Both the position numbers and the translations under genes were made by a program. A DNA stretch of 64,000 bases from Tridacna crocea (lineage: Eukaryota > Mollusca > Bivalvia > Cardiida > Cardiidae): assembly GCA_943736015.1 (NCBI GenBank), contig OX031070.1, positions 39,982,173 through 40,046,172 on the forward strand, given 5' to 3'. Positions 190 to 64,000 of this stretch are shown here, in pieces (the stretch's first letter is position 1; every line of letters starts with the position of its first letter). The notes beneath the pieces are model-generated. The model had not been told where the DNA came from. It ran no database searches and worked only from the letters and a program-made list of their open reading frames with translations.

Positions 190-371
190 TATTTGCAGAC
201 GACAAAATAAACATAAGTCAAAAACTGAAATTTGTTTCCAACCAGCTAGAAAACACTGTGGGAAAAGGAGAAAATGCTAGTTACCAGCATTTTCTCCTTT
301 TCTCACAATGATTTCAAAAAGGCTTCTATCTCAGGGTCATAAAAACCAGGGATTGTTTGGTAAAGGGTTAA
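190..371 (-). mobile_element. TH-A hairpin MITE, long arm truncated
   Basis: Core AAAATGCTAGTTACCAGC hairpin, short-arm end GGTAAAGGGTTAA intact. The outer long arm is missing and joins the 175-bp repeat. Confidence 0.75.
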
Positions 372-451
372 AAACCCTGCTGGACTAGGATCAAAATACA
401 CTCACTCCATTCATCTTCAATTGCTATTCAGGTTATAATATTTCAATTTTG

Positions 452-628
452 GGGTACCATGTGGAAAAATGTTGACTTTCTTTTGTTCTAAAGCGTCAAG
501 AAGATTTTACAGGTTTGAATTTTTCTGGGGACCTGAATCATGGCTATGAAACATTTGAACATAGGTATACCATCTTTGTAACCTGGTTGAGGCAATACCC
601 ACATATATTTCAAACTGCACCTAGTTGA
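452..628. repeat. Three-copy 175-bp repeat, copy 2
   Basis: About 75% alike to copy 1 by eye (GGTACCATGTGGAAAAATGT start, ACTGCACCTAGTTG end). Confidence 0.6.
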
Positions 629-739
629 GTCTCCCAGTTTATTTATAGACCTTAATACCTGGATTTTGTTTCATATAATAAGAATTTGTTCAGTCATTTA
701 ATATGCTTTTATTAACTCCTGACCAAAAGATCCCATGTT

Positions 740-974
740 TTAACCCTTTGCCACACGACCATATTCTGGATTCTTCCAAATTCAAAGCATTTGCTGACAA
801 CAAATTAAAAGTGTCAAAAATGATGAAATTTGTTTTTGAAATAGTAGAAAGCAATGTGGGAAAAGGAGAAAATGCTACCGGTAGTTACCAGCATTTTCTC
901 CTTTTCCTACATTGCTTTCAAAAGGCCTCTCCATCAGGGGTGTTAAAACTAGGGACTGTGTGGTAAAGGGTTAA
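740..974 (-). mobile_element. TH-A hairpin MITE, complete
   Basis: TTAA at both ends, full arms. The hairpin centre carries a 4-nt-type expansion (GCTACCGGTAGTTACC) that is itself palindromic. Confidence 0.85.
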
Positions 975-1520
975 TGACCCTGTGAGGAAAACTTTTGTAA
1001 TATTTCTGGAAAAGGAGAGACTTCTGTTGACCATCCTATTTTCTTTTTCCAACCGTGTTTTCTACTATTTTAAAGACAAATCTTAGTTTAAACATATTTT
1101 ATTCATCAATTACATGTAATTACAAAGATCTAAAGACAAATCAACAAAATAACAAACAATAACTGATGAAATGGATCAGAACGAAAGCTAAGCTTATATT
1201 GTTCTTCTCTAAAATTTCAGGTACACAATTATAGATTGATAACGTAATAAAAATCATAACAGTATTTTGATTGTTATTGAAAGAAAACCGTGGGAAAGAA
1301 AAACAGAACAGGAAAATAAGCTGAAAAATAAGCTGAATTGGTGTGGAGTGTTTCACTGGGGGAACGAGAAGGAATTTTTCACAAACAATTGACCTCCTCC
1401 ATGAGCATCCAATATCTATTGATATGTGATGGTCATGAAGACAAATCTTATCATTTGAACCACATTTATTTTGTCATCTATAAATGCTGTTTGATTTAGG
1501 GAGGTCCCAAATGGTCACAT
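975..1520. other. No feature seen
   Basis: AT-rich sequence with no recognised gene or repeat; a weak match to GAGCATCCAATATC does not recur. Confidence 0.4.
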
Positions 1521-1737
1521 CTTTACAAACTGACAAAATTTTAGGCTTGTTGAATTCAAAAGCATTGGCAGACAAAATAAATTCATTTCAAAAATCAAAA
1601 CCTGAGTTTGGAAAGATAGAAAACACTGTTGGAAAATGGAGAAAATACTGGTTAACAGCATTTTCTCCTATTCCCACAGTGTTTTTGAAACCTGTTTTAC
1701 TAAGATTAAAAGTTGGGATTTTGTGGTAAAGGGTTAA
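1521..1737 (-). mobile_element. TH-A hairpin MITE, diverged
   Basis: Long arm first, core AAAATACTGGTTAACAGC, ends GGTAAAGGGTTAA. The left terminal TTAA is lost. Confidence 0.75.
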
Positions 1738-1949
1738 AGGAGTTTTGCTCTAATATGGTGTTGAAGTCTTTTACTGCCTGTTATTTCTTTGCCCTACCAA
1801 ATAATTGTGAAAGTTGTGGCTCCATTCAAGCTGTTCATTCTTTAGTTTGGTTCGAAAATATTGTGGAAAAAGGAGAGAATTCTATTTCGCCTTTGACCAC
1901 ATTTTTTTTTACTAAAACACAGGATTGTTTGATTAGGGTGAAATATTTC

Positions 1950-2112
1950 CATTCTGAAACCGTGAAAAAAATTATCGAAATTTTGTTGTTCTCTAAAGCG
2001 CCAAGAAGACGAAGTAGCCTTGACTATTTCTGGCAGCATAAATCGTGACTATGAAACTTTTGAACATAGGTATTATATATGTATAACCTAGACCAAGCCA
2101 TCCTGAACTGCA
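1950..2112. repeat. Three-copy 175-bp repeat, copy 3
   Basis: Same ordered motifs as copies 1 and 2 (TTCTCTAAAGCGCCAAG, TTTGAACATAGGTAT, GAACTGCACCTGG). It runs straight into the centre of a TH-A hairpin. Confidence 0.55.
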
Positions 2113-2113
2113 C

Positions 2114-2258
2114 CTGGTAACCAGCATTTTCTCCTTTTCCTACAATGTTTTCTACTCTTCACCAAACAAATTTCAAATTTTCAGTCACCTTTATTTTGTC
2201 ATCTGCAAATGCTTTCAATTTGGACAAGTCTATTATATTGTCATTTGGTAATGTGTTC
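2114..2258 (+). mobile_element. TH-A half element starting at hairpin centre
   Basis: Begins with CTGGTAACCAGC, the exact centre of the core, and keeps only the long-arm half. Confidence 0.75.
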
Positions 2259-2579
2259 ATTACCAAAAGTGGAACACATCCCATAGGAGTGGGTAAACCT
2301 CATAAAAGTATTTTTTACACAGTTATGACCCTTCATCTACATAGAATTTTATCTGGAAAAACAGCTTTGCAACCAAGCGATGGCAAGAGCATAATATACA
2401 TTGTATTATATAAAAAAAAAAGGCCATACCTGGTAATACTTCCATCAAAAGTTGTCATTCCTTTGCATTCAGCTTCCACACTTTCTGCTTTTAGCGTTAA
2501 TGATAGTGCTGATAATGTAAATTTGCAGAAATTAGGTGACATCTTAGTTGTACTGTAGCAACAAGTAATGTGTAGATTG

Positions 2580-2612
2580 AAGATCAGACTGTGTGTTTGT
2601 GCAGTCTGATCT
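2580..2612. mobile_element. TH-D type dyad (AAGATCAGACTG hairpin)
   Basis: AAGATCAGACTG and CAGTCTGATCTT flank a 9-nt loop. The same dyad recurs elsewhere in the window, most completely at 29928-30131. Confidence 0.55.
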
Positions 2613-2654
2613 TTACATGCACCACTTGCAATAGACAACGATAGACAGACACTG

Positions 2655-2860
2655 TAACTCTTTACCAAATGACAAAATTTTACACTGGTCCAAATTGAAA
2701 GCATTTGGAGACAACAAATAAAAGTTTGAAACTGGTTTTGTGAAGGGTAAAAAAAAATTGTGGGAAAAGTAACCAGCATTTTCTCCTTTTTCCACCTTGT
2801 TTTCAAAAGGACCCAAGGATTGGGGTTGTTAAAAGTCGGGATTGTGTGGTAAAGAGTTAA
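2655..2860 (-). mobile_element. TH-A MITE with one stem side deleted
   Basis: Both arms present, but the core reads GGGAAAAGTAACCAGC: 13 nt of one stem side are gone. The same junction occurs at 59514. Confidence 0.75.
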
Positions 2861-3136
2861 GGACTAAGACTTTTGGATAACACAGTTAGGACTGGTTGAT
2901 ATTTAAAGCACTAAGATTTTGTGACAAATTGAAATGTTACAAACATTTCTCCTTTTTCTACAAATGAAGGTTTTCTTTCAATTTTCGTATAAAAACAGCA
3001 TTCTCTATTTCCCCCAAGCCCATGTCACACATTTTCTTTTCATTAGTGTTAGCCTGTTCATGCTGGCAACTTTCTGAAGTTTCATGTTTGCTTTCTATGA
3101 TGTCATTATTAGCAGATACATTTTATATCAAATGCT

Positions 3137-3360
3137 TTAAGTCTTTATCACAAAATCCCGATTTATAACGACCCTGAGAAAGAATTTTTTTGGAAACATT
3201 GTGGGAAAAGTAGAAAATGCTGGTAACCAGCATTTTCTCCTTTTCCCACAATGTTTTTTACCCTTCCCAATGTCAATTTCGGTTTTTGAAACACGTTTAT
3301 TTTGTCGTCTGCAAACGCATTCAATTTGGACAAAAATTTTGTCGTTTAGCAATGAGTTAA
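3137..3360 (+). mobile_element. TH-A hairpin MITE, complete
   Basis: TTAA at both ends; core AAAATGCTGGTAACCAGC intact. Confidence 0.85.
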
Positions 3361-3956
3361 TTAAGTACACACATTTGTACAATGGAATACAAAGACAGCT
3401 CTCTGCCATGAAACGACTATGGCCCATGAATAGATCAGATTCTATAGTTGAAAGTTCAACAGATGTCTCTGACATACAGAGTGTCTGATATTTAGCAGAT
3501 TCATTCAAAATTGAGTTATTTCTGTATCAGATAACAAAATTCAAGTTTCATGCAACAATGAAAGGGTACAAAACATTGCAAAAAAGTAGAAAATACTACT
3601 TCCAGCATTTCCTGCTTTTTCTCTAATGTTTTAATAAGCCTTACAATTATTTAACATATAAGATTTTTGGGTAAACAGTAATTATATTTCCCTCTGCAGA
3701 TTTTTCTTTTTTTTTAAGACGACTTTTGGAAACCTTGTTTCATGTGAAAAGATCACTCAGCAATTTTTAACTCACCACAATGTTTTTCAATGTACATATA
3801 ATATACAATTAAACTTCCTTTTGAAAAAAGATTTGGTGTACATATGTATCTACCGGTATATAAGTCATAATTATTGATTTGCACATGTCTGTCAGTTGCC
3901 TTGTAGGTGGGTTATACATGTATATGCCTTCATATAATAGTTAGGTCATTCCCAGA

Positions 3957-4168
3957 TAAGCCCTGGTTTTTACGGCTCTTAGATTTAAGGCCTTTGAGAA
4001 CGCTGTGAGAAAAAGAGAAAATGCTCATAAAATATATTTTTTTCTTTTTCTACAGTGTTTTCTTCCCTTACAAATAGAATTATACCACCTTTTAGCCACT
4101 CTAAATTTGTTATCTGCAAATTCTTTCAATTTCAGACAATCAAAATTACCTCATCTTGTAAAGAGTAA
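3957..4168 (+). mobile_element. TH MITE, diverged
   Basis: AGCCCTGGTTTTTACGGCTC short arm as in TH-B, but an A-like core (AAAATGCTC) with a decayed second side. Confidence 0.55.
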
Positions 4169-4292
4169 TGTTGTTAACCAATATTTTTTCAAGTATGTAT
4201 ATTTTTCAAGGTGTTTGCTGCAACTTCCTTTTAAAATGAAGCAAGTTAACCCCCAGAGGCTGCTAAGCTTGACTTACTGACCTCTTGCTGAT

Positions 4293-4340
4293 AGTGTAGA
4301 CCAAGATCAGACTGCACATAATGTAAAATCTGATCTGTGA
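4293..4340. mobile_element. TH-D type dyad
   Basis: GTGTAGACCAAGATCAGACT followed by a decayed partner AAAATCTGATCTGTG. Confidence 0.45.
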
Positions 4341-4421
4341 TGTATACTGTTTGATAAGGACATACATTTCCAAAAAAAAAAATACCGTTGAAATAGTAAA
4401 ATTTGGCTTTTTACTCTTGGC

Positions 4422-4652
4422 TTAACCCATTACCACACAATGCCTCCTTTTGACACCCCTGAGAAAGAAGCCTGTAGAAAACATTGTGGGAAAAGGAGAA
4501 AATTCTGGTAACCAGCATTTTCTCCTTTTCCCACAATGTTTTCTATCCTTCATAAAAAATAAGTTTCAAATTTTCAGTCACTTTTATTTTGTCGTCTGCA
4601 AATGCTTATAATTTGGACAAACCTAAAATTTTGTTGTTTGGTAATGGGTTAA
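4422..4652 (+). mobile_element. TH-A hairpin MITE, complete
   Basis: TTAACCCATTACCACAC start, GGTAATGGGTTAA end, intact hairpin. Shares its final TTAA with the next copy. Confidence 0.88.
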
Positions 4653-4872
4653 AACCTTATCACACAATGACAACTTTTACTGCTCCTGGGAAAGAGGCAT
4701 TTTAAAAACATAGTGGAAAAAGGAGAAAATGCTGGTAACCAGCATTTTCTCCTTTTCCCACAATGTTTTCTACCTTTTTCCAAATCAAATTTCAATTTTT
4801 GATTCACAGTTATTTTGTCATTTGAAAGTGCTTTCAATATGGACCAGTCTTGAAATTTTATCATTTGGGTTA
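4653..4872 (+). mobile_element. TH-A hairpin MITE in tandem with previous
   Basis: Same orientation, joined through one TTAA (4649-4652). The right TIR is decayed to TTTGGGTTAG. Confidence 0.8.
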
Positions 4873-5159
4873 GAGGTGTCACTTTACATTTTTTCCTCAT
4901 GATGAGGGCTAATTTCTTATAGATTATAATATATCCTAATTTTTTTTTTTTTTCAGACAATGACTGAACAAATGCCAGAGGATGATGATGATTAAGACGA
5001 ACAGAAATTGTGCACAAATCGAAAGAATCAAATTCATCTAGACATTACTTTATTCCTTTGCTAACTTATTCCTGTGTTTTCCCTAATCCAAAGGAGGAAG
5101 TTCTTCCGTAAACATTTGTAGGAAAAGGAGGTCTTGTTTTTGTTTCAGTTGTTGAAAGA

Positions 5160-5372
5160 TTAACCCACTACCACATTATCCCTACTTTAGATGACCCTGA
5201 GAAAGAAGCCTATAAAAACATTGTGGGAAAAGGAGAAAATGCTGGTTACCAGCATTTTCTCCTATTCCCACAATGTTTTCTGCTCTTCACAAATCAAATT
5301 TCAAATTTTCAGTCACTTTTATTATTAATTTTGGTCGTCTGTAAATGCCTTCGGTTTGGACAAGCCTAAAAT
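5160..5372 (+). mobile_element. TH-A MITE, first of a tandem pair
   Basis: Preceded by GTTGAAAGAT. Its right TIR is replaced by a second GTTGAAAGAT, which shows that element and flank were duplicated together. Confidence 0.8.
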
Positions 5373-5382
5373 TGTTGAAAGA

Positions 5383-5609
5383 TCAACCCATTACCTCACA
5401 ATCCCTACTTTTGACGACCCTGAGAAAGAAGCCTTTTGGAAACATGGTGGGAAAAGGGGAAAGTGCTAGTAAACAGCATATTCTCCTTTTCCCACAATGT
5501 TTTCTACCCTTCATAAGACAAATTTCAAATTTTCAGTCACTTTTATTTTGTCATCTGCAAATGCCTTCGATTTGGACAAACCTAAAATTTCGTTGTTTGG
5601 TAAATAGTG
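5383..5609 (+). mobile_element. TH-A MITE, second of a tandem pair
   Basis: Follows the repeated GTTGAAAGAT; start mutated to TCAACCCATTACC; core intact apart from a changed centre (CTAGTAAACAGC). Confidence 0.78.
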
Positions 5610-5719
5610 AAGTCAGCTGTACTTCACAGTTGTTGAAACAGCTGAACCATGCTCTGTGAAAAGGGTGCTTAATGCATCTACAAAAAGTATTGACTTAGGT
5701 TAGCCATTGAGATTGACCG

Positions 5720-5802
5720 CCACATTTTCTCCTTTTCCCTCCATGTTTTCAAAAGGTTTCTTTCTTGTGGTTGTTATAAGTTGTGATTACATGGTAAACT
5801 GA
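5720..5802 (-). mobile_element. TH-A half, short-arm side
   Basis: Starts inside the core (CATTTTCTCCTTTTCCC) and runs to ATGGTAAACTGA; other half absent. Confidence 0.55.
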
Positions 5803-5876
5803 TAAGCCTTCTTGTGCCAGAGCATGGGTCAGTCATGTTTGAGGTAACCATTTTGTGATGTCATGTGTGACATCAT

Positions 5877-6761: not shown

Positions 6762-6857
6762 TATAACTTTATTTTAAATAGCAACTTACGCCAGATTCTC
6801 TTTATCTTAGGTAGTAGAAAGTGTTATGGTTGAGCATTGTTTTCAATCACTGTTTTT

Positions 6858-22000: not shown

Positions 22001-25000
22001 GGACTTGCAGGCTAGTTACATAAAAGAATTGCTCAAGAAAGGAGCAGATTCTTTATATGTCACAAAGATTTTCTTGATTAAATGTATTATATGATAGAAA
22101 CCACCAAACATTGAATATTTGTGTTGAAACTTACAGCTTGGAAAATAAGAAGTTAGTTCTTTTCCAGACAATCACATGACCTGACGGAAAAAGCTTAACC
22201 CATTACCACACAATCCCTACTTTTGCTGCCCCTGAAAAAGAAGCCTTTGGAAAACATAGTGGGAAAAGGAGAAAATGCTGGTAACCAGCATTTTCTTCTT
22301 TTCCCACAATGTTTTCTACCCTTCAAATTTTCAGTCACTTTTACTTTGTCATCTGCAAGTGCTTTCAGTTTGGACTAGTTTAAAATTTTGTTGTTTGGTG
22401 AAGGGTTAGATTGCAAACATTTTCTGAATCATTCTATCCTATTTTCAGTTTTTTTGTACCATCCTTTACCTTTATGACACTGTCTTATGCTTAATAGACC
22501 CTGAAGTGGGAGCTGTTCGAAAACATTGTAGGAACTGATAAAATACTGGTTACCAGCATTTTCTCATATTAGTTCTGATGAGGCTGAAATTTTGATGGAG
22601 GGAAAGAAAAATCCTATTTCTTGAACCAAAATTAATTTGTTGTCTGCAAAGTTCTCAAACTGGAGTAATATAATTTATCATCTGGTAATAAAATGCTTTA
22701 CCAGAAAACAAAATTATCGAATTTCAAACCATTTTCAGAGGACTTAGCAAAAGTGGCTCAAATCAGGAGAATTGTCTGTGAAAGAGGAGAAAATGTTTTT
22801 GGAAAAGGAGAAAATTAATGCTGGAATTTTCTCCTTTTCCACAAAACCTCCTCCTATTAGGAGGTTGAGTGCAAATGAGTAAAACAAATAACAGGGACTG
22901 TATCTTTCTTCCATAGATGTCGGGGATTTCATGTGATGTTGACCATACATATCAAACGATAAAGTCTACTTGTGCACAGGACACTGCAAGTAATGGTAAT
23001 GTGTAGCAATGTTTGTTTATTTACCAACTGCTAAATCCATTACCACACAATCCCTACTTTTGATGACCCCAAGAAAGAATCCTTTAGAAAACCTTGTGGA
23101 AAAAGGAGGAAATGCTGGTTTATATCAGCATTTTGTTTTTTAACTATAATGCTTTTAAAAGCCTTTTCAGCCTGGCTTGTTAACCCGTTCCCAAACGACA
23201 AATTTTAGACTCTTCCAAACTCAAAGAGTTTGCAGATGACAATTTCAAATGTGATAAAAATGGCTGAAAGTTCTTCAAATAGGTAGAAAACACTGTGGGA
23301 AAAGGAGAAATTGCTCGTTACGAGCAATTTCTCCTTTCCCCCCACATTGTTTTCTAAAGACCAGTACTGCAGACACGTAAAAACAAGGGCTTGTTTGGGA
23401 AAGGGTTAAAACACATAAATAAGGGGTTAAGAGATAACTTTTGAGCTTCAACACTGTTACCACAGGCACTTGTTCTTTTCAAAGTTTGACTAAAACACCA
23501 TTCAGTCAATCATTTGTCAAACTTTTTGACCTTAGCCCGCCCGGGTGGCTCAGTGGTGAGCATGTTGGACTCATGATCTAGTAGTTGTGAGTTCAATACC
23601 CAGTTGAGGTGAATTTTCTTTCCGGCGTATTTCTGCCTCTCACCTCTGCTAAAGCATGTGAGAAATGTAGTCGGTGGCTTTAGAAAGAAAGTTGTGTAAG
23701 TATCGGTGTGAGAAAGCCAGGAAACACATGTGCGTCACCGACCGCCATAACATGACCTTAGCTGTGAAAGTGGTGTTAAACCCCAATACAACCAACCAAC
23801 CTTTTTGGCCTTTAACTTTAATACTAGTTCTAAAGTTATACTATGTTTTGTTTACTTTGTACCAGGGCCCATATTCACAAACCATTCTTAAGAACGTTCT
23901 TTGTCTTATTCTACAGAATTTTCTACATTTGTAAGTAACACAAATTCTGTTGTTTTACTTACAAATTTAGAAAACCTTGGAAAATAAGATAAAGAATATT
24001 CTCAAGAATGGTTGGTGAATATGGGCCCTGGTTTTAATGTTTTTTTTTGCTGCCAGCAACTGAGACTTTAATAGGCTGTACATTGTATGATAAAAGGTTG
24101 TCAGCTTCACAATAATTTCCATACTTTTCAACTGTATGACCTACCCTTAAGTGTACATGTATTTTGACGTCTGCATATTTACTTTGCCCAGATTGGGCTT
24201 TTAAAATTTCATGATCTTGATACACATTTGTCTTAGAGCATATTTAAAGTTGCCACTGTTTGCTAACACTGAAATATAGATAACAAGTTGGTTGTCTGAA
24301 GTCCTCAAGGTGAGATTTTGTGATTGTGCTGTGTGTGTCATCACTTGTCTGTCTAACAGGTGTCAAAATTTACCATGTTAACTCTAGAGGACTCACTTTC
24401 AGAGGTAACACTTGTCTTGAAGAAATCTTGGACATGTTTGAAATAAGGTCACATCAGATCCAAATGTGGGTCACATATCTAAATCTTAGGAAAACTTCCT
24501 GTGTAGTCAGGAGGCAACACATTCAGCGAGATACTCTTGAAATTTGGTCAGAATGTTTTGTCTTGATGATACATTAGACCCAAGTTAGAAATTGGGTCAT
24601 GATAGGTCTAAAAGTAGGTCACAGAGCTAAATCTTGAAAAAGTCTAATTAGCACTTTAGAGACCGCTTTTTGTTTTTGGCATGAAATTCATGAAACTTAG
24701 GCAGAATGTTTATCTTGATATCTTGGCAAAGTTTGAAACTGAGTTATATTGGGTAAAAAATAGATCACCCAGCTTAATACTGGAAAAAGCTTCAGTCTAT
24801 GCACAATGGAGGCCACATTTTGAGCCCAATACCCTTGAAACTTGGTCGGAATGTTTTTTATATTGATATCGTAGACAAATTTGGAATTGGGTTATATTAG
24901 CTCAAAAAGTAGGACACAGGGCTAAACCTTAGAAGACTGGCCCACCTAGCTCAATTGGTGTGTATGACTCTAGAATGTGAAGTTTCAGTTCACTTGAGGA

Positions 25001-28000
25001 CCTTGGTACCATTTCCATGGCTGGCCCCATAAAATTACTAAAAGCCTTTAAAGGTGGGTATTTAGAATTTTCACATCACACCAAATTAAAAAATATATAT
25101 GTCAATGAAATTTATATGATAAAACATTACAAATCATCAGTAATTAAGTATCATAAAATTACAAAAAAAAAATTTTTGGTGGTATTCCCTTAAAAGGCTA
25201 CGTAGCCCCTTAAGCTATTTTTAGATTTCCCGCCAAAATCAAAAAAGCATTGTGGGAATGTTAAGTGACTCGGACATGACTAATGACTATTAAATTCTAT
25301 AGCATAACAAACATGTAGTTATTTTCCATAATGTCTAGAACTTCGGACGCTATGTTTGAAGCTTCGTCTGTATATTCCTGGTATGTAAATAAGCGAGTTG
25401 CCAATGTGAAAATAGACCCGTGTTTCCCTTCAGTGTCGACCTGGCTTGTAGTAAATCTCTAATTTATCTAGTTGTCCGATGGTTTTCGACTACTGGGGTT
25501 TAATGAATGAAAATCATAAGGCTTCGGGAGTATAAGGATGATTTTTTTGTATTATTGTAAAATTTTCGTCCCAATATCTGAAGGGCCACCTTTAAGGTAA
25601 GACCTGTGTAATGCACTTCCGGTAAAAATTCTAATTGGTTGATAAATAAGGATAAATAAGGATTTATGCAGAAATAATATTTTTGCACTTTTCTAATGGA
25701 TCAGAAATTCCGTTTATGTCTATCTCGAAAATATTTTTTTATACTTTTTGTTAGTTTTCTGCAAAGGGAGGTAATTATTATCTCTTTTTGAATTGAAAAT
25801 ATAGTGGTTTTATATTTATAAATGATAATTCAAAGAAGGAAAAAATGGAAAAAAATGAAATGGTGAAAGTAGTTCAATAATACTCATTTTTAATTATAGC
25901 TAATTATGCAGGATGATATTTCAGTGGAAATAGCTGTTTTCCATTACACAGGTCTTACCTTAACTCTTTACCACATGACAGAATTTTAGACCAATCCAAA
26001 TTAACCCTTTACCAAACTACAAATTTTTGGACTGGTCCAAATTGAAAACATTTGCAGACGAAATTATTAAAGTGACGGAAAATTTGAAATTTGTATGGGG
26101 AAGGAGAGAAAACATTGTGGGAAAAGGAGAAAATGCTGGTTAGCAGCATTTTCTCCTTTTCCCACAATGTTTTCTAAAGGATTCTTTCTTGGTCATTAAA
26201 AGTCGGGATTGTGTGGTAATGGGTTAAAAGCATTTGCAGGCAAAAAAATAAACGCAACTAAAAATTGAAATTGTTTCCAGCAGAGTAGAAAACACTGTGG
26301 TAAAAGGAGAAAATGCTGGTTACCAGCATTTTCTCCTTTTCCATTAATGTTTTCAAAAGGCTTCTTTCTCAGGGTCGTTAAAAGTCGGGATTGTGTTAAG
26401 AAGAGACATTAAACCAAGGTCTCTTGTGACGGTGCAATACACTGAGCATTTTCAAGAACCAGACTTAATTTAGGATAGGTTTTGGCCGGTATCTGCACTA
26501 TCCCCTATAACTGTACTAACAGGAGACATCAACCAAATGAGCAACTGCTGGTGACAATAAATAAACACAGAGTCACTCACTAAATCCTAGAAAAAAGCTT
26601 GTGTACACTCTAAGGTCAAATTTGCAGCCTGATGCTCTTGAAAATCGGTCCAAATGTTTTTCTCAATTATACCTGGAAGTGGATCAAAATTGGGTCATGT
26701 TGGGTAAAAAATTAGGTCACATGGTCAAATGTTGGAAGAAATGTCCATACACTTTAGAGGGCACATTTTCAGCCAAATACTCGTGAAACTAAGTTGAAAA
26801 GGTTACCTTTCTGAAATCTCAGGTAAGTTTGAAATTGAGTCACAACAGACCAAAAAGTAGATCACTGGACCAAATCCTGGGGAAAAAAATGTGCCGTCAC
26901 TTTTTCAGTCTAGTACTCATGGAACATTATCAAAATGTTTTTCTTGACGATATATCGGACAAGTTCAAAAGTAGGTCAAGTTGTTCGGAGAGTAGGTCAC
27001 TTACACGCATGCCCTTTAATTTTACTTAACTCTTTACCGAACAACAAATTTTGGACAAGTCCAAACTGAAAGCATTTGCAGGTGACAAAGTAGATGTAGC
27101 TCAAAAATTGATATTTGATTTGGGAAGGGTAGAAAGCATTGTGGGAAAAGGAGAAAATGCTGGTTATCAACATTTTCTCCTTTTCCTACAATGTTTTTGA
27201 AAGTTTTCTTTCTCATGGTCAGTGAAACCTGGAATTGTGTAATAAAGAGTTAAGTAAAACCAGGATTTTTTTCTGGTATAATTACCATAGACAAATTTAC
27301 TCAGGTGAGCAGTTTAGGACAAATGGCCCTCTTGTTTTCTATCTCTTTTAGATGGAGTAGGCAACGTTGATGATCACAGTTTCTTTGACGATTCCTTCCA
27401 GACAGTTGTAGAGGTAACACAGGGATCATAAAGTGTTTGTTCTACTATACAAAACATCATGGGAAATAACTTACATGGGACTGAAAAGACACAAAATAAC
27501 CCTCATGCAAACAAACTCGTGTCTTAAATTTTTGCTACATGACAGTATTGTAGACTAGTCCCAATTACCATACAATCCCGGGTTTTCATGACCCAGGGAA
27601 AGAGGCATTTTGAAAACATTGCAGGAAACAAAAAAATTGCTGATAACCAGTATTTCCTTCATCCATAATGCTTTCTACCCTATCAGAGAGCCTTTGTACT
27701 CTTTTGTGCAGATTTTGAATTTGTCATCTGCTGACTTTTTTAACATAACTTGAGTCTAAAATTTGTTGTTTGGAAAAGGCTTAACCCTTTCCCAAACAAG
27801 CCCAGATTTTTACGTGTCTACAGTACAAGTCTTTAGAAAACACTGTGGGAAAAGGAGAAATTGCTCGTAACGAGCAATTTCTCCTTTTCCCAAAGTGTTT
27901 TCTGCCCCTTTGGATAATTTTCTGCCAAAGTTAAGAAAGTTAAAATTGTCATCTGCAAACTCTTTCAGTTTGGGAGAGTCTAAAATTTGTCATTTGGGAA

Positions 28001-37087: not shown

Positions 37088-37316
37088 TATAACCCTTTCC
37101 CAAACGACAAATTTTGGACTCTTCCAAACGTAAAGAGTTTGCAGACGACAATTTTAGATTTTGAGAAAATGGCAGAAAGTTTTCAATAATAGTAGAAAAC
37201 ACTGTGGGAAAAGGAGAAATTGCTCGTTACGAGCAATTTCTCCTTTTCCCACAGTGTTTTCAAAAGACTTTTACTGCAGACACGTAAAAATCAGGGCTTG
37301 TTTGGGAAAGGGTTAA
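37088..37316 (-). mobile_element. TH-B hairpin MITE, complete
   Basis: CCCTTTCCCAAACGAC start, perfect GCTCGTTACGAGC core, right TTAA shared with next copy. Confidence 0.88.
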
Positions 37317-39974: not shown

Positions 39975-42900
39975 GTAATGTACCGCGTGGACTCTGCTGT
40001 AATCATTCCAACACGCCCCTTATTCATAATTTGTTAGCAAAATTAGGATTTTGAAAGGATTCAAAAGGCTCCACCACTTCTTTTAAGGGCATGCATTAAC
40101 ATTGCAGAGTTGACTTTGTCAGTTTGTTAAGGTGATAGGTAATTAGCATCACTTGTGTATTGTGAAACGCAAATTTAATAAAGGGGGCGGACATGTAGAT
40201 AGTTTATGTTGATGATTTGGCAAGCTGTCATGGACTGTAACGGATATGTGTCAAACAAAATTTAGTTTTCAAATCTACTTTCTTGCAGCAGTTAAAATCT
40301 TTTTTGCTTGTAAAACACTACGAGATGTCATTTGAATATGAGCAAAAAGGAAGATAATTACCTTTACAAAACTACCCCACCCACATTTGCAGAAAGTGTG
40401 TGCCCAAGACTAGTACATTCGTTACTTCCCATACATTTGTTACTTGGTATATTTATAGAATTTTCTCATGTGCCCGAAATCCTTTCCATTCGAGGATCTG
40501 TATATTTTGCCCAATGATGAATTCTGTATTCACCTAAAAAGAACAGAAATGCATAAAAAGATATAGTGTGGTTTTAAAGACTTCCCTCATGTTAAAACTT
40601 CTCCTTTTTAACCCATTAACACACAATCCCTACTTTTGACGCCCCTGAGAAATATGCCTTTTGAAAACACTGTGGGAAAAGGAGAAAATGCTGGTAACCA
40701 GCATTTTCTCCTTTTCCCACAGTGTTTTCTACCCTTCCCAGAACAAATTTCTATTTTTCAGTCACCTTTATTTTGTCGTCTGCAAATGCTTTCAATTTGG
40801 ACCAGTCCAAAATTTTCTCGTGTGGTAATGAGTTAATGTAGAAATGCATCATTTTATGATGAAATGGATTATTTGCTGAGATGGAAACATGACATAACCA
40901 TTTAACTCTTTACCACACAAGAAAATTTTAGACTGGTCCAAATCGAAAACATTTTCAGACGACAAAATAAAATACAGTTAACCCAAAAATAGAAATTTGT
41001 TCTGGGAAGGGTAGGAAACACCAGCATTTTCTCCTTTTCCCACAGTGTTTTCAAAAGGCTTCTTTCTCAGGGATGTCAAAAGTAGGGATTGTGTGGTAAT
41101 GGGTTAAGGTGCTTTCATCCTCATTATTTTACACACGGGTTAAGATTTCCAGTTTTGATCCACCATGCTGCAAATCAATCTGTTGAGTGCACATCTGATC
41201 GAAGTTTCATTTTATTATTCCTTGCATTAAGTATCTTTGATCTGATCAAGGTTGCTTACTTTTCTTAACTTTGGAAAACCAGTATAAATAAACGTGTGCC
41301 AAGATTGCATCTACTTTCTCAGTTGGATTAAGTGGAAGATACTTGACGAACCTATGACGTTAATCTTTACCTGCGGAATGATGTCAGTTTAGCCTTGTAG
41401 TCTGACGGGTCCGACAAATCACTGAAATACCACCGAAACACCGAAATACCCCGTATTTTTTTTTTTTTTTACAATATGATCAAATAACTAATATAAGTGC
41501 GAAAAAAAAGTCTCCTTTTTTGTTTTCAACACAAACTTATGATTATATTGATGGTATAATATAGATATAATTACAGTTCACCCTTATAGCCCTTCATCTC
41601 TGTTGACATTATTTGGGTCAAATTCCATGAGAAAAGACAAATCTGTTGAACTTCAATAGTAGTAAAAATATAGTAATAAAACATTAGGGGTGTTTTGGTG
41701 GTATTTCGGTGATTAGCCGGACCGTAGTCTGACTAATTACAGGGAATGAATATAATTGTGGGCCCTATGCTCGAGTGATTCGGATCGAAACATACACTGT
41801 TAAAAACAAAGTTGAAGTTTTTGTTACATTATTTTTACCAGATGTTTTAGCGTTTGAGATCTATAAATATGTCCAATGTCTTATTTCTCTAAAGTTTTAG
41901 CAAATCATCTACCAAGCAGTAACTCGCATGCGCAAAAATAGGGTGTTAGAATAACAAATGTATGGGTCCATAGGCTAAAGAGTAGTAAGTTTCAAATATC
42001 TAGAGGTGGTAAATGTTTGAGATGATAGTATAGCTTAATATAGCATTGACATTGTTAGTCATGTGGCTAAAAATACTAAGTATAAAAGAGAATACTGGAC
42101 TGGAATATGGCAAGATGTTAATGTTTTGAAGTTTGTAAGAGTGTCTGAGTTGCTTTATTAGAGTTTCTGGTAAATAAGTATTTAAGTGCTGTTCACTTCT
42201 TGGCTAGCATTAGCCATATGAATATCTGTAATATTTTGCGCCAAGATGGCCTCATACTTAGAAAAGAGTCAAAGCTCTTTTTTAAGTCCTGACCAAACAC
42301 CAAAGTGCAGACTCCAAAAGCCATTGCTGATGATGAAGGGCAAAATAACAGGACTTGTCAGTCAGAAATAATGGTAATGGTGATAGTAGATACTAAGTCA
42401 TGATGATAATTCTGATGATTTTTCTCTCATACTGCTTTTTCGTTCTCGTTATGACTAACAGATTTTCCATATGTATGTTATCACTCGTAATTAAATATCA
42501 CCACAAATGCATCATAAGTTGTTTAAACATTAAGACTATGGCTTTTCACATGATTTGTAAATTTATATATAACTACTTTTTTCCCATCCTCAGCTCCAAA
42601 ATGTTGGAATCAACGCAGCAAATATTGGGTTCAGTACTCTTACCATGGAATCGGATAAATATATCTGTGTTCGTGAGAAGATTGGGGAAACAGCCCAGGT
42701 GGTTATTATCGACATGAATGATAGTTCAAACCCAATCCGACGACCCATCTCTGCCGATTCTGCAATTATGAACCCAGCAAGTAAAGTGATTGCTTTGAAA
42801 GGTATGTTTGGAAAAATATGAATTGTATCGAAATCCTGTTTAAATATTAATCGTATACCAGATTACAAAATTTTAGCCCTGTCCAAATTGAAAGTATTTG

Positions 42901-45900
42901 CAGACCACAATTCCAATGTGGCTCAAATGGTGCAATTGTTTATTGATAGGGTAGGAAACGTTGTGGGAAAAGGAGAAAATGCTGGTTTTCAACATTTTCT
43001 CCTTTTCCCACAATATTTCCTACCCTATCAAAGAATAATTGCACCGTTTATAGAAGCCACAATGAAATTGTATTCTGCAAATGCCCTCAATTTGGACAAG
43101 CCTAAAATACCGTCGTATAATGGTAACGACTTAAGCCTAATAAATACTAGGAAAGAAAAGAACATGTAGCATGTAGAGTTGTGGGAGCTATGGGTTTCTT
43201 ATTCTCATTGTTGTGTTTTACCCTGATGCAAAAATCCCTTCTATGATTTGGCTTTGTTTTTGTTCATTGTATTTTGCAAAGAAATATATGTCTGATGTGA
43301 CTTTTATATCCAGTGTTTATAAATAGCAGGAAGAGTGTTTCTCATAAAATTAAGTGAACCAGGAGAGGTGAACCTTATTGCCCATTGATGGCTGAAGGGG
43401 CTTATCAACCATTTTGGCCAAAATTGACTGTTTCGCATATTCATAAAATTATGGTTGTGTTTGAAAGATATTTACCCAACATGGTTGCACAGTTGGTGAA
43501 TGAATGATGTCACATGTTAACCATGTACTTGGGATATGCACGCAACATGAAGAAAGCGCCTGAAATACATTATTGCTTTATGTTTGCAAATTGTATCATT
43601 TTGTATCATTTAGATTTGACCCAACCTTCTGATCACTTTGCCAAACAACAGAAATATTAAACTTGTCCCTTTAAAAAAAAAAGAGACTATAAAATAATAT
43701 GCGGTAAAATGATAAGACTTTTTTTTTTTTAAATATTGGAGAAAACTTTTTTTTTTGGCAAAATATTGGAGAAATCATTTTGGAAAAATGGGAAAATGCT
43801 TGTTTTCAGGTAGCATTTTTTCCCTTTTTCCCCAATGTTTTCCTAGGCTTTTGTTCCAAAGGCCTGTTAAAGTGCTAGGGATCTTTTGGTAAAGTGTAAA
43901 TCCTCATGGACTATAGTTCACTGGGCTTTGTCGTAGATATAGCAAGTCACGTTTTAGACTGTTTTTGTGCTATGATTTGTGGCTTTAGCTTTACTTAAAT
44001 TTTTTTTACAACGGGAAAAGGCAAAAGATCTTGATTTGTTCTGTATGTTATTTATTTTCCTGTTGACAGGCTCTTCTCAACCTGGGGATCCCAATGGTCT
44101 GTATTGGTTTACCCCACCCACTGTTATATATTTACACCCAAACTCATGCCCATTTATTAGCCTTGTGGTTTTTGAAGAAACAGAGAGGTGTTGTCATAGC
44201 ACTGTGATAGTCTGTGTCCTTATGCAAGTACAGGGTGTAGGGAAAGTAAGGTAACACTTTTGTACATTGAAATTTTGGCATAAAATATAAGATAGAGATG
44301 GAAAATAACTATACATGTAAATAAAATGTGTATGGTTTTCAAAGTGACGGCCGATTGTGCTCTTTCCTTTCCGAGCATGCAGGATAGAATTGTCAATCAC
44401 TTTAGTGTACATTTCAATATCAATATTCTTGATTTCCCTTTAACTCTTTCCCACACAATCCCTACTTTTAACCCTTTACTCCATAAGGCATTTCAATGGT
44501 ATCTCTAATTGACCCCAAAAAAACAGCAAGGATGAAGCTGTTTCTTATGTGTATATGACACCTTTTGATAGCATAGAAAACATTTTGGCAAAAGCAGAAA
44601 TTGCTCGTCACGAGCAATTTCACCTTTTGCCACAATGTTTTCTAAAGGCTCATTCAAACAATGCGTAGAAATGAGTATCTATGGAGTAAAGGGTTAACAA
44701 CCCTGTGAAAGAACCCTTTTGAAAACATTGTGGGAAAAGGAGAAAATGCCAGTAACCAGCATTTTCTCCTTTTCCCACAATGTTTTCTTCCCTTTCTAAA
44801 ACAAATTTCTATTTTTGAGTCACATTTATTTTGTCTTCTGCAAATGCTCTCAATTTGGGCCAGTCTAAAATTTTGTCGTTTGGTAAAGGGTTAAGTTTTC
44901 TTTAACAACATATATGTGCTATCTGTGTGGGATTGTTGACCTTTGACTTCACATTTGCCCACAGAAAGAGGTTGCACGGGTTGAGGTCTGGATGAAGTCA
45001 TACAGATATGGAAAAAAAAAAAAACTTGTTCATGCTAGATGGTGCTAAGGCACACATATCTAAATCTGTGACAGAATTTTTATATGATACTTTCGGTGAT
45101 AGGATAATATCAAAACGATTTTCCTGAGATCACAGATTACTGAACATTACGACCTGGGTCCATATTCACCAACCATTCTCAAGAACGTTCTTAGTCTTAT
45201 TCTTCAAGATTTTCTGACAGTGAAAGTAACATAACATCTGATTGGCTAAACCAAATGGTTTAGCCAATCGGATATATGTTACTTTCACAATGACGAAATT
45301 CTGAAGAATAAGACTAAGAATGTTCTTGAGAATGGTTGGTGAATACGGACCCGGCTTACAGTTCCAACCTCAAGCTTTGTAACTTCTTTCTTTGCATTAC
45401 TCTGAGGTTGGAAGTTTACGATCCCTACCCAGACAACACAGACATGCTGTTTAAAAATCTTTCTAGTAAACTTAATATCATTGATATTTGAATGTGTTCT
45501 TAAGTGATTGACAGTTTCATCGTGTGTGTCTGAAAAAGAAAGAGCATAAAAGGCCATCAAATGGAAAAGGTCAATAATTACTAAAATGACGCAAATGACA
45601 AAAAGTTCTTTCTGATTTGAAATCTATATTTTTAAGAAAACTGAATGAAATTACCACATAAAAAATTGCATATTTTATATACATATACGATTTTTTCTAC
45701 CTCTTTATGTAATTTTTCAAGCCATATTGTAGATATACAAAAGTGTTACCTTACTTTCCGGACACTCTGTACTTTGATGATTTATGAAGGCAACTGTAGC
45801 TGAGTGTTAGCACCCTCATAAAGTGCTCATGTTTGTTTTTTGAGAAAAAGTTTATGTTGAAGTTTTGGCAGAAATGCAGTTCAAACTAGAATGTATTCGT

Positions 45901-48900
45901 ATAACTTCATTAACTATGATTTTGCACATGAAAGAAATGTGAATTTCAGCTGTTTAACCCATTACCACACAATCCCTACTTTTGATGCCCCTGAGAAAGA
46001 AGCCTTTAGAAAACATTGTGTGAAAAAGAGAAAATGCTGGTAACCAGCTTTTCTCTTATTCCCACAATGTTTTCTACCCTTCACAAAACAAATTTCAAAT
46101 TTTCGGTCACTTTTATTTTGTCATCTGCAACTGCTTTCAATTTGAACCAGTCTAAAATTTTGGTGTGTGGTCAAGAGTAAAATAATCACATAGAGTTTAT
46201 GTGAGCGTCTACTGGGAGTGTCAGTTTCTGAAAAGGGGTTAAAGACTTATTCTGAATGCATTTTACCAAGCAATTGTTACACAGTTATGAAACCAAAAAA
46301 TCAATTTTGTGAAAGAATTAGCTTAATCATTGGATAGAAGGGACATTTGACATGAAGAAATTTTACAAACAGCAAGGAGTTTTGACCCATGTTAACATGT
46401 GCTGACTGCACTAGCTGATATGAAGTTGAACATCTTGTAGATCAATGCATTATAGCCACTTTTGACCCTTTACCAAATAATCCTGGTTTTTACTGTCCTG
46501 AGATAGAAGCTGTTTAAAGACATTGTGAGAAAAGGAGGAAATAGTGGTATAGGAAATAATGGTATTTTCTGCTTTTCCCAGAATGTTTTCTACCCTGCTG
46601 GAAACAAATTTCAATTTTTGAGTTCCATGTAATTAGTCATCTGCAAGTGCTTTCACTTTGTACGAGTCTAAAATTTTGTTGTTTGGTAAAGTTAACCCAC
46701 TACAACACAATCCCTACTTTTGACAACCCTGAGAAAGAAGCCTTTTGAAAACATTGTGGGAAAAGGAGAAAATGCTGGTAACCAGCATTTTCTCCTTTTC
46801 CCACAATGTTTTCTACCCTCCACAAAATAAATTTGAAATTTTCAGTCACTTTTATTTTGTTGTCTGCAAATGCTTTCAATTTGAACAAGCCTAAAATATT
46901 GTCGTTTGGTAATAAGTTAAGCAGAGCATGACTCATAATTATGCACCAACAAGCCCATTTCCGTATAGTCAAATTCAATAATTATGTTTTTTGTCCAAGA
47001 ACTTCCCATCCTTTTCTTTCCAACTTTATTCCACAGTAACTCTTTACCAGACAATCTTTTAGACCTGTCCCTTATGGAAGCAATTGGAAACAAGTTAGAT
47101 CAGTGTATTAGATATGCTCTTACAAAGGGTCGAAAAAGTTGTTGAGATCAAAATGCTGATTTTTTTTTCTTCCCAAAATGTTTTCCATGATAAACCTCCT
47201 ACAGAACACTTGTATGCTTTAGTGGCACTGGCATTTTCTCCTTTCTCCAAAATGTTTCCAACCCTTAACCAAACGACAAAACTCCTTTTCCCACAATGTT
47301 TTCAAAAGGCTTCTTTCTCAGGGTTGTTAAAAGTCTGGATTGTGTGGTAAAGAGTCAAGAGACAGACTTTATTTCTGGAGCCATATTTTATTTGTCTTCT
47401 GCAAATACTGTCTATTTTGATTGATCTAAGATTTTGATGTCTGGTAGAGTTGAATGCCCTTTCCCTCTATGGAATGGTCCTTCTTTGTGGCACAACTATA
47501 AAGGGTGGATTTGTCCAAAACTGACTTGTATAGTATTGAGTGCACCCTTCATCCCATATTATGCAATCCTTGCCCCTGATGCCCACACATTGATTGATGC
47601 ACTATTCAAATTCCTTTCCTTTTTTTATGGGGTAGGGTGGGGGGGGTGGGTTGGGATGTTGGCATATACTGCAAACCTTATACCTCGTAACTGCACCATT
47701 TCCTTTTTCAGTTGTGGATCAGTTGATAAGGTTGAAATTGAATCTCACACTATCATTTGAGACACATAATTTTAAAAAAAATGAAGTCAAAGTTAGGTCT
47801 TGAGATAGGACCGAAGTAATTGCAGTCTCAAGGTGCCTGTCTGGAATATCTCCGCAAAGTAGACTTTGTGGATCAAAGATCAGTCTGCACATTTATTAAA
47901 GTCTGCTCTTGATCTACACTGGCTGCATTGTCGCAGTCATATCACTGTAAAAGGAATGCTAAGAGTTAACTTGTTACCACACGAGAAATTTTAGACTGGT
48001 CCAAATTGAAAGCATTTGCAGACAACAAAATATAGGTGACTAAAAAATAGAAATTTGTTCTTGGAAGGGTAGAGAACACTGGGGGAAAAGGAGAAAATGC
48101 TGGTTACCAGCATTTTCTCCTTTTCCCATAGTGTTTTCAAGAGGCTTCTTTCTCAGGGGCATCAAAAGTAGGGATTGTGTGGTAATGGGTTAACATGTAT
48201 AACGTAATCTCAGACTGCTTTGGAAATGGAAAAGAGCAAATTTTGTAATGTATTAACCCATTGCAACACAATCCCTACTTTTGATGCCTCTGAGAAAGAA
48301 GCCTTTAGAAAATATCATGGAAAAAGGAGAAAATGCTGGTTACCAGCATTTTCTCCTTTTCGCACAATGTTTTCTATTCTTCACAAAAAGATTTCAAATT
48401 TTCAGTCCCTTTTATTTTGTCATCTTCAAAATGCTTTCGATTTGGACAAACCTAAAATTTTGTTGTTTTATAATCAGTTGAAGAGTCAAGTTTGTACTTC
48501 TACTTACCTCTAGGAAAATAATATTGCATTTTCATGAATCTATTGACCAGAATATGAAATATTTGTAAGCAAGTGTACATCTAAGGAACTCTTCTATATT
48601 TCTGTTACTGATCTAGTTTTCCTACAAAGCTTCTGACTTGGTGTGTAGTTGCTGGCACCAAAGTTTTTTTATTTTATTCATCAAACATTGGCATTAACCC
48701 ATTACCACATAATCCCTACTTTTAATGTCCCTGAGAAAGAAGCCTTTTGAAAACAGTGTGGGAAAAGGAGAAAATGCTGGTGACCAGCATTTTCTCCTTT
48801 TCCCACAGTAATTTCTACCCTTCCCAAAACAGATTTCAATTTTTCAGTCACCTTTATTTTGTCGTCTGCAAATGCTTTCGATTTGGACCAGTCTAAAATT

Positions 48901-51900
48901 TTCTTGTGTGGTAAAGAGTTAAAATTAAGATTGAAAAGAAATAAGATGAGTCGCTCTGTTTGCAAACACTTTTTGTTTTTGACACATTCTGTATTTGACT
49001 TGCATGTATTTTTTGTCCATGATACTTTTATGTATACAACTTTTATGTTGGAGAGTTTAGCATGGATAAAATGACAATGAATATAATATTTGTGCTTGTT
49101 GCCAAGGTTTATGATGCATGAAACTATATGGAACATGTGACATATAGATAAATTGCTTGCCATGAGCAATTTTGCCTTTTGTCACTGTGTTTTCGTGCGA
49201 GATCTAAGCAAAAGCAGCTATCTACAAATGGTGACCGTTTGGTGATAAACTGGTAATTTGTATTTCGGAAAAATTCGCAATGCATCATGCCGACACCCAT
49301 AATTATTTCTGATCACATATTATTCCCAGCATTCACTGTTATTCTGGACAAACTACTGGGTGTGCTTATTTTTGTTTGATAGTTATGCAAATTTGCATGC
49401 TAAACTAATCAAAATACTAAATGAAATAGTGCAAGCTTTTGTAAAGCAGTGTTCATTCTAGAGATCAGATCAATGGGGCCAACTGGCATTTTCTCCTAAT
49501 CCTATAATGCTTTCAAAAGCTTTCTTTCTCAGGATAGTTAAAAGTTGGGATTGTGTGGTAAAGAGATAATAGGGGACTCAAAAATGACGATGTCAAGCCT
49601 GGTGGTACAGTCAGGAGTATACAGGACTTGAAACCACAGGGTCTGTGGTTGAAATCCAAGCTCTGCATTTTTCTTTTTCGAGGATTGATGATACCAACTG
49701 CAGAAGGATTTATTCCTCTCCCACTGGTGATCATTATTTTGATGATGCCCTTGTGAGAAAGCAGCCAGTTAGCAATGATAGGATGATTCAATGAAATATT
49801 TGTCTTTTCAAGGCAAGAAAAGATTGTGGGAAAAGGCGAAAATGCAGGTTACCAGCATTTTCCTCTCTTTTGGCAGTGGTTTGTAAAGATACAGGATTGT
49901 TTGGTTAAAGGTTAGGTATGACACAATGTTTGAGATTTGTACCCTACCCGGCAGGTTATCGAGATAAATGTTATCTCTTTATCTCAGATACAATTAACAT
50001 GAATGATCCTGAGCTTAGGTTGTCATAACCCTGAAATTCCCGACCAGAACAGTAATACCTAAAATTGCTGTAACTGATTATATTCAGCAGCATTATGTCC
50101 TTTTAATATGCTACCAAAGGGGACATATAGTGGTGCCATCTTCTCAGTCAGTCCGTTCTTTTTCTTGTGAACTCAACTCCTTCCACATTTTTTGGCAGAC
50201 TTGGAAAAAAATGTCACAGAATGTTTCTCATCATGTGACCTAGCGCATATTGTCAAGAATTTGCCATTTATAGCTGTGTCATGGAAAAAGGGAGCTTCAT
50301 GTTACATTTCATTCATTTCTTATGAATACAACTCCTCCAAAATTCTTTTTGGATTTGGATAAAATTTTCACTGAATGTTTCTCATCATGTGACCAAGGGC
50401 ATATTGTCCAGATTTTGCAATTCAAAGCTGTGTCATGGAAAAAAGGAGCTTCATGTTATATTGCATTTTTCACCAGTATCTCTTTACTTTTAACTGAACA
50501 TACCTCTGTTGCCTGTTGTGCGTCCGTCTGTCAATCCATTGGTCAGTGGGTAAACTTTTCACACCACAAGACTAGTAACACATTATATCCATTGAGCTAG
50601 CCCGGCAGGCACTAGAAATCCCAACACTTTAGTCTCTCTACATCTGGCTGCTTAAAATAGCAGCCATGTGGTGGCATGTAACATGACGACGGCACTCGTG
50701 TTCCATTGTGTATTTTTTACCTTATCAAAGATTGCTGCTGTAGTTTAAGCTTAAGGTTCATGTTTTTTGGTCAGCAAAAGGCCTTAACCCATTATCACAT
50801 GACAATATTTTAGACTGATCCAAATTGAAAGCATTTGCAGACAACAAAGGTGATTGAAATTTGAAATGTTTTGTGAAGGATAGGAAACATTGTGGGAAAA
50901 GGAGAAAATGCTGGTTACCAGCATTTTCTCCTTTTCCCACAATGTTTTTCAAAAGCTTCTTTCTCAGGTGCGTCAAAAGTAGGGATTGTGTGGTAATGGG
51001 TTAATCATGGCCTTGTCTAAGATTTTTTTTTTTACCAGGAATAAAGTAATGTTGAATTATAAAGATTCTTTCTACCTAACAGTGCTGGGGTTTCACAACT
51101 CTTGAGAAGGAAGCCATTTTAAAACACTGTTAAATCTTTACCGCACAATCCAAACTTTTAACGGCCCTCAGAAAGAAAGCTTTTGAAAACATTGTTGGAA
51201 AAGGAAAAAATGCTGGTTACCAGCATTTTCTCCTTTTTCTCACCGTGTCTTCTACCTTTCTGGTTACCAACATGTTCTTCTGTTCCCACATTGTTTTCTA
51301 CCCTCCCCAAACCCATTTTAAATTTTTGATGTACATTTATCGTCTGCAAATGGTTTCAATTTGGACTGGTCCAAAATTTTGTCGTTTGATAAAGAGTAAC
51401 ATGTAAGGTATCAATATTGCTATCGTGGTCGCAGTCTGCATTAGTTATCTTTACTCTTAATCAAACAATCTTAGTTTTAGCTACCATGAGACATAAAACT
51501 TACAAAGTCACCAAGGGAAAAGAACAAAAAAAACCAGTACTCTTTAACTCTTTACCACACATTTTCCGACATTAACCCATTACAACACAATCCTTACTTT
51601 TGATGACCCTGAGAAAGAAGCCTTTAGAAAACATTGTAGGAAAAGGAGAAAATGTTGGTTACCAGCATTTTCTCCTTTTCCTACGATGTTTTCTAAAGGC
51701 TTCTTTCTAAGGGTCATTAATAGTTGGAATTGTGTGGTAAAGAGATAGTGGTATTTCGCTGCCTTCAATACAGTGAAAAGCAGTCACATTCGAAACTGTG
51801 ACAGGGGGAGGGGTTAGGTGTTTCCAAAGCTACCCTAAAAAATTTTGGCTCATTGCAATAAATTGAAGGGATCCAAATTACAGATTGTACATGTTTCTTT

Positions 51901-63931: not shown

Positions 63932-63970
63932 GTAAGAATGCCTTCGCACCGTAACTTATACAATAAAAGT

Positions 63971-64000
63971 TTAATTCTTTACCACACAATCCAGACTTTT
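63971..64000 (+). mobile_element. TH-A MITE, cut by window end
   Basis: TTAATTCTTTACCACACAAT and CCAGACTTTT: the short-arm end of a further copy in clathrin intron 8. Confidence 0.75.

Follow-up and report, generated by a model that had tools for sequence, protein, structure and literature searches.

A TTAA-flanked, piggyBac-type MITE superfamily of Tridacna crocea and the possible role of its central palindrome

A 64,000-nucleotide stretch of the Tridacna crocea genome (contig OX031070.1, positions 39,982,173 to 40,046,172; hereafter the window) is densely occupied by short elements that we call TH, for TTAA-hairpin, and that are present in about 1.04 million copies genome-wide, fragments included, amounting to about 18% of the genome. 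That TH is a piggyBac-type MITE is well supported, because its insertions duplicate TTAA and because nine end pairs of piggyBac elements from the same genome start with CCC. The data further point to a central palindrome that is constrained at the level of source copies, a role that the original prediction had left open. With modest confidence we favor a model where TH is a superfamily mobilized in trans and where selection maintains the palindrome as a cis-acting component of TH amplification.

Anatomy, abundance and insertion sites

An nhmmer profile grown from window copies detects 107 non-overlapping TH copies between positions 188 and 63267, 62 of them essentially full length, which together cover 20,806 bp (32.5%) of the window. 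A second model, built on copies from both the window and the genome sample described below, covers 19,870 bp (31.0%), and no match was obtained in ten dinucleotide-preserving shuffles of the window. These values bear out the original estimate that about 30% of the window is one kind of element, and the consensus displays each part of the anatomy proposed with it (TTAA, a CCCTTT end, unequal arms and a hairpin with a stem of about 33 bp). The element measures about 227 bp (227 consensus columns). It begins and ends with TTAA, and has 54 columns to the left of a 67-nt hairpin, in which 33 pairs enclose one central base, and 106 columns to the right of it. Its ends start CCCTTT or CCCATT; the consensus left end reads CCCTTTACCACACAA... 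after TTAA and the right end ...GTTTGGTAAAG(A/G)G before TTAA, and as the two agree at 14 of 16 terminal bases, TAA included, the TIR is short and imperfect. Like other MITEs, TH is short, uniform in size, bounded by TIRs, present at high copy number and non-coding, the last being gauged from its length alone. Predicted folding energies of the hairpin consensus are -53.2 kcal/mol for RNA (z -14.9) and -37.2 for DNA (z -14.5).

Three stem types can be told apart, type A carrying G-C at pair 3 and A-T at pair 8, type B having both of these pairs switched, and type C having pairs 13 and 20 switched as well. Type A is exemplified by forward-strand copies with TTAA at both ends at 46692-46920 (hairpin 46747-46813, two 33-nt arms that are 100% complementary with 1 nt between them), at 40608-40836 (hairpin 40663-40729, arms again 100% complementary) and at 4422-4652 (hairpin arms 4475-4509 and 4511-4545). 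The type-B copy at 37089-37316 on the reverse strand, whose stem carries ATTGCTCGT/ACGAGCAAT and whose hairpin at 37195-37261 is 100% complementary, ends in forward coordinates with ATAA on the left and TTAA on the right, while a type-C copy with the GGCAAAAGGTGAAATTGCTCGT stem and TTAA at both ends lies at 31373-31601 on the reverse strand (hairpin 31480-31546). At 42847-43134 a longer, diverged copy has a palindrome that extends to 60-nt arms (88% complementary). The window also contains a seemingly unrelated fold-back element at 23861-24032, with 83-nt arms (86% complementary) and the outer sequence GGGCCCATATTCAC.

The assembly around the window comprises 1.0488 Gb in 31 contigs, and we sampled it in twenty 10-kb stretches on 18 chromosomes. 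By the first model these 200 kb hold 199 TH copies (209 by the second), dispersed over every sampled chromosome at 9.95 +/- 1.3 per 10 kb (range 2-25), with 36,220 bp, or 18.1%, in TH sequence; the genome-wide total of about 1.04 million is extrapolated from this sample. Exact word counts agree with the sample: a type-A half-arm 20-mer occurs 414,670 times in the genome (79 in the sample against 79.1 expected), a 25-nt type-A core 231,766 times (43 against 44.2) and a type-C half-arm 42,078 times (7 against 8.0). With 42 occurrences of the A half-arm word against 25.3 expected from the genome count, the window is about 1.7 times as rich as the genome. The word GAAAATGCTGGTAACCAGCATTTTC had no occurrence in viral contigs or in bacterial and archaeal genomes. 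Copies of a large subcluster diverge from their own consensus by 4.2% in the stem and 10.9% in the arms, suggesting that most TH copies are not recent. Two of the 10-kb samples, L010 (C1:25000000) and L019 (C9:22000000), are tandem arrays with units of about 1.67 kb and about 1.59 kb, lengths taken from hairpin spacing, with a tandem-repeat run on L010 alone; each unit holds one TH copy, and the arrays are satellites that captured the MITE.

Target-site duplication was assessed on the 82 copies in which both ends were exactly reached. TTAA is found on both sides of 70 of them, on one side of 11 and on neither side of 1 (151 of 164 ends). The flanks of 77 copies were also joined at a single TTAA and searched for empty sites, with a match spanning the junction in 19 cases, of which three were checked at the junction and several of the other 16 are the copy's own locus or TH copies. 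The three checked sites (L017:8676-8903, L017:2242-2462 and L016:1084-1304) lie within two other repeat families, and the 12 matching places at their junctions carry one TTAA in nine cases, a one-base variant in two and no TTAA in one. The earlier claim of TTAA duplication therefore holds on both counts, the 70 doubly flanked copies and the three empty sites with one TTAA. A dispersed repeat family other than TH at window positions 25121-25279, also present in L016, L017, L021, L028 and L034, served as an empty-site comparison. Among 111 adjacent pairs of end-complete copies, 20 lie directly side by side with a single target site between them, in various relative orientations, a pattern that would follow if each insertion made a new TTAA available; at 30920-31601 three copies abut (orientations +, -, -), with one TTAA common to neighbors.

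Two other candidates were considered over 264 kb. Independent mobility of the hairpin was rejected: hairpins of at least about 50 nt number 230 in this sequence, 140 of them inside full TH elements, and the 90 outside, compared by their nearest TTAA pairs, show no repeated second boundary class, two tandem arrays excepted. Rival TTAA/CCC MITEs lacking the hairpin were likewise rejected, as a search for TTAACC[C/T] ends with at least 12 of 14 matching end bases returned 36 pairs, of which 17 are TH elements and the other 19 are TH-like and look like the ends of two different TH copies.

Decay, lineage-level change and possible role of the palindrome

Stem pairing was analyzed in 166 full TH copies, 41 of which remain untyped as their diagnostic pairs have decayed. 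At most stem positions pairing is near the prediction of independent decay, which argues that the arms of the stem mutate freely after insertion. Against this background five pairs show two-sided switches: pair 3 (G-C/C-G), pair 8 (A-T/T-A), pair 13 (A-T/T-A), pair 20 (G-C/C-G) and pair 26 (T-A/C-G), the last in both type A and type B copies, so that both sides are affected in five of the six stem changes seen at lineage level. Genome-wide, the 231,766 type-A cores stand beside 12,325 cores with pairs 3 and 8 both switched (type B or C, central A), and the half-and-half core with a B left and an A right arm, the orientation covered by this count, occurs 7 times, with 0 for reversed-pattern controls. 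Four of the five paired switches (3, 8, 13 and 20) are strand swaps rather than transitions, and transitions dominate one-sided decay.

The sixth lineage-level change is confined to one side. A G-T combination occupies pair 21 in 4 of 100 copies of type A and in 6 of 8 of type C, whose consensus retains 32 of 33 Watson-Crick pairs. That most type-C copies have it rules against reading the one-sided changes at this pair as all recurrent hits. Pair 21 counts against the model we favor. A further comparison took the 40 one-sided states with at least 5 carriers among 144 copies and asked about the relatedness of their carriers with stem columns left out; none reached p<0.01 and four reached p<0.05 (lowest 0.012), where about two are expected. 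Among the paired switches, 13 and 20 are significant in the same test (p<0.001), as is 26 (p 0.028), and 3 and 8 are not, because types B and C are far apart; with two of the five paired switches failing it too, the test is of limited power. At pair 6, 4,507 cores are changed on one side and 247 on both, about 2.8 times independence if singles on the other arm are assumed equal to the 4,507 measured, an excess that differences in copy age may explain. Taken together, private stem changes are not generally symmetrized, and lineage-level ones are mostly two-sided.

The frequency spectrum of changes separates the stem from the arms of the element. Alleles present in at least 15 of 144 copies number 8 in the 66 stem columns, six from paired switches and two from pair 21, versus 101 in 120 arm columns, and singletons number 43 versus 23 (common versus singleton, Fisher p 3e-16, a value computed on related copies that are not independent events). 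Within the 62-copy subcluster, with the cut at 6 copies, the singleton-to-common ratio is 41:3 in the stem versus 110:30 in the arms (p 0.026, subject to the same relatedness). Per cell, singletons in this subcluster run at 0.0101 in the stem versus 0.0149 in the arms, and changes found in four or more copies at 0.0131 versus 0.0688. The stem is thus about 5 times poorer in shared changes and 1.5 times poorer in private ones, which places the constraint mainly on which copies become sources; as singletons are also rarer in the stem, a lower stem mutation rate may still account for part of the contrast. At large distances stem divergence is about 0.4 of arm divergence (0.22 and 0.58 in the most distant bin). 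The consensus stems of types A and C differ two-sidedly at four of 33 pairs and one-sidedly at pair 21, while their arms are almost unrelated, the type-C arms having been forced onto the type-A profile for this comparison. The hairpin is common to types A, B and C despite their different arms and inner ends.

Symmetry at the source level could also arise from hairpin-templated copying without selection. In this alternative, a growing strand would switch template within the hairpin during gap repair or replication and copy its own arm, keeping source copies symmetrical while the sequence itself has no role. The mostly two-sided lineage-level changes are consistent with it, as are an almost wholly palindromic copy at 51570-51750 (90-nt arms, 86% complementary) and the behavior of pair 3 alone, where 449 one-sided cores are accompanied by 23 two-sided ones versus about 0.9 expected if single rates are equal on both arms. 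The same process nevertheless predicts a stem that drifts as fast as the arms, at odds with the 4+1 of 33 pairs that distinguish types A and C, and it sits poorly with private stem mutations that are not symmetrized. We consider it unlikely as the full explanation; hairpin-templated correction may add symmetry, but leaves the conservation of the stem amid arm turnover unexplained.

Less probable again is a role at the RNA level, where read-through transcripts would fold into the 33-bp hairpin and yield small RNAs or recruit RNA-binding proteins. The strong predicted RNA fold is compatible with this possibility, and the G-T of pair 21 would still pair in RNA. Hairpin RNA is, on general grounds, more likely to silence an element than to spread it. 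No Rfam family reaches the gathering score in the window. MITE-derived microRNAs are known, with human mir-548 derived from Made1 as an example.

In the favored model of a cis-acting palindrome, a putative transposase of the piggyBac class would have moved TH in trans until it reached about one million copies, with mainly those copies whose palindrome is intact and symmetrical serving as sources. We infer an action of the palindrome at the DNA level, during synapsis or copying. In the preferred form, the 67-bp palindrome would extrude, or be bound as a dimer site, and thereby serve as a hinge or clamp that allows both ends of so short an element to come together, or it might help gap-repair copying.

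Known relatives

The closest known relatives of TH are the CMITE families of Acropora corals (Wang et al. 2010, PMC2872659). In that description, CMITEs show TTAA duplication, ends that in most families start CCCTTT, piggyBac elements in the same genome and several families with different TIRs around a common internal region that is better conserved than the TIRs, all of which has its parallel in TH; the origin and role of the CMITE internal region are given as unknown in that account. CMITEs are about 100 bp long with about 1,600 copies in A. millepora according to the same source, whereas TH is about 227 bp long with about 1 million. The internal regions also differ in structure: the 60-nt CMITE internal consensus holds no long palindrome and folds with z -0.65 relative to shuffles, compared with -14.5 for the TH core in a comparison of folds alone, and the internal region of TH is an almost perfect palindrome whose lineage-level changes come in pairs.

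The mPok1 and mPok2 elements that accompany Pokey of Daphnia are, like TH, non-autonomous piggyBac derivatives, and Pokey is described at a specific rDNA site as well as elsewhere, whereas TH is dispersed. The hairpin of human Made1 is formed by the TIRs themselves, whereas that of TH is central and separate from them. Made1 otherwise resembles TH as a short hairpin-folding MITE (PMC1784062), and the palindromic MITE-like clusters of Anopheles gambiae likewise consist of palindromic repeats of transposon origin, though the text on them does not bring up TTAA and its passages hold no pair-change analysis (PMC3212995). A survey of bivalve transposons reports MITEs as a considerable share of the genome, in its passages not further classified (PMC10294476), and the relevant passages of a hairpin survey over 118,019 genomes mention neither bivalves nor molluscs (PMC13155455). 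We found no description of the TH family in the open-licence literature, and a repeat library may already list it. The novelty lies in how the palindrome behaves, with independent private decay together with mostly two-sided lineage-level change.

This behavior bears on the question of how MITEs out-amplify their parents, for which TH provides roughly a million natural replicates of a cis-feature that lends itself to measurement: the symmetry of the stem in each copy can be compared with the success of its lineage, and pair-change counts are a direct computational test of selection on the palindrome in source copies. Palindromes are commonly regarded as fragile sites, and more than 200,000 exact 25-nt palindromic cores raise the question of how the genome copes with them.

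piggyBac elements of the genome and repeat D

The piggyBac transposase domain (DDE_Tnp_1_7) has 118 matches in the genome, some loci having several, and we examined both flanks of 18 loci and, at a further 14, 901 bp on the 5' side. The element's own ends could be recognized in 15 of these 32 loci. A search without any base rule in the 18 loci yielded nine end pairs, all with TTAA followed by CCC: CCCTTTATATAC in L006, L007, L008 and L029, CCCATTTATGCCT in L003 (CCCATTT, as in CCCATT-type TH ends), CCCTTTCAG(C/T)GC in L030, CCCT(A/T)GTCATGC in L031 and L035, and CCCTCTAGA in L037, where the pair ranked second behind a pair made by repeat D (see below). Ends reading CCCTAGTCATGC after TTAA likewise belong to piggyBac elements of this genome. 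Single ends of like kinds, which follow TTAA and start CCC, were found in L005, L034, L036, L039, L049 and L052, and as the pattern used for them was limited to pyrimidine-rich starts (TTAACCC in nine loci), they lend no independent support to CCC. Four further candidates (L033, L038, L050 and L051) were rejected as partners because the CCC or TCC ends seen there are those of TH copies.

The TH ends themselves were compared across subclusters, whose consensus left ends read CCCTTT in three of three at a cut-off of 0.30 and, at 0.20, CCCATT (62 copies), CCCTTT (12), CCCTTT (10) and CTCTTT (8). The piggyBac hallmark given in the literature is CC[C/T]T with TIRs of 12-19 bp (PMC2872659); the 14 of 16 matching terminal bases of TH, TAA included, lie in this range, and we count the end hallmark as present in TH, with CCCATT departing from it at the fourth base. 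The piggyBac reading proposed earlier thus stands as regards TTAA and CCC-type ends, while the autonomous relative with matching ends of 15-20 nt has so far not turned up in the 32 loci: in the 15 whose own ends are known, these never read CCCTTTACCA, which counts against the model of trans-mobilization with a selected palindrome. As the own end was not identified in 17 of the 32 loci, the partner may have been missed, or may be extinct.

TTAA is targeted by Kolobok and Sola2/3 elements as well and is thus not unique to piggyBac, and no piggyBac with the long end of TH was found in the 32 loci. Another TTAA-targeting superfamily as the mover is nonetheless very improbable, given that CCCTTT ends fit the CC[C/T]T hallmark (PMC2872659) and that CCCATT ends match the CCCATTT end of the L003 piggyBac in the same genome.

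Several of these loci are of interest in themselves. The CCCTTTATATAC-ended family encodes a 624-aa frame in three of its four loci and one of 474 aa in L029, has several genome copies with identical scores and was perhaps recently active; in L007 its 624-aa member at 774-3762 lies inside a TH copy as a nested TTAA insertion. L002 holds a piggyBac-like frame of 491 aa with an apparent separate first exon and no recognizable TTAA ends in 4.1 kb, and is perhaps a domesticated gene; weak hairpin matches around this frame look like old background copies and were set aside.

L037 is a 3.66-kb TTAA-CCCTCTAGA piggyBac element with a 496-aa frame that is flanked on both sides by inverted copies of a repeat of about 306 bp, termed D, whose center is a diverged version of the TH hairpin, half of which is present in the upstream copy of L037. 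A second transposase copy on C2 (L048), 88-91% identical to that of L037, likewise has a D repeat at the corresponding position upstream of the frame, and L055, the 3' piece of the C2 copy reaching about 1 kb beyond the frame, has none. L054 is a 1.66-kb form with L037-type ends and one D, and by eye it looks like a deletion form. We regard D as a lead that links the hairpin to a piggyBac context rather than as the missing partner, because its own ends do not start with CCC.

As the hairpin is common to the A, B and C backbones and, in diverged form, to the D repeats, a wider reading is possible, and we hold it with considerable doubt: the palindrome might be a transferable, sequence-specific and symmetry-requiring cis-module that greatly boosts the success of any piggyBac-type backbone carrying it. 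If true, TH would be a DNA-transposon counterpart of Alu among retroelements and would document, in nature, how selection acts on nuclear DNA that forms cruciforms.

The search with D gave at least 77 matches, the strands of a palindrome each being counted, and 42 of those listed lie in the first 50 kb of C1, C2, C3 and C8. Among the matches listed, clusters are found at C1:17799-39455, C2:15954-19421, C3:43279-47934 and C8:7703-11812; near chromosome starts as they are, they are probably subtelomeric arrays.
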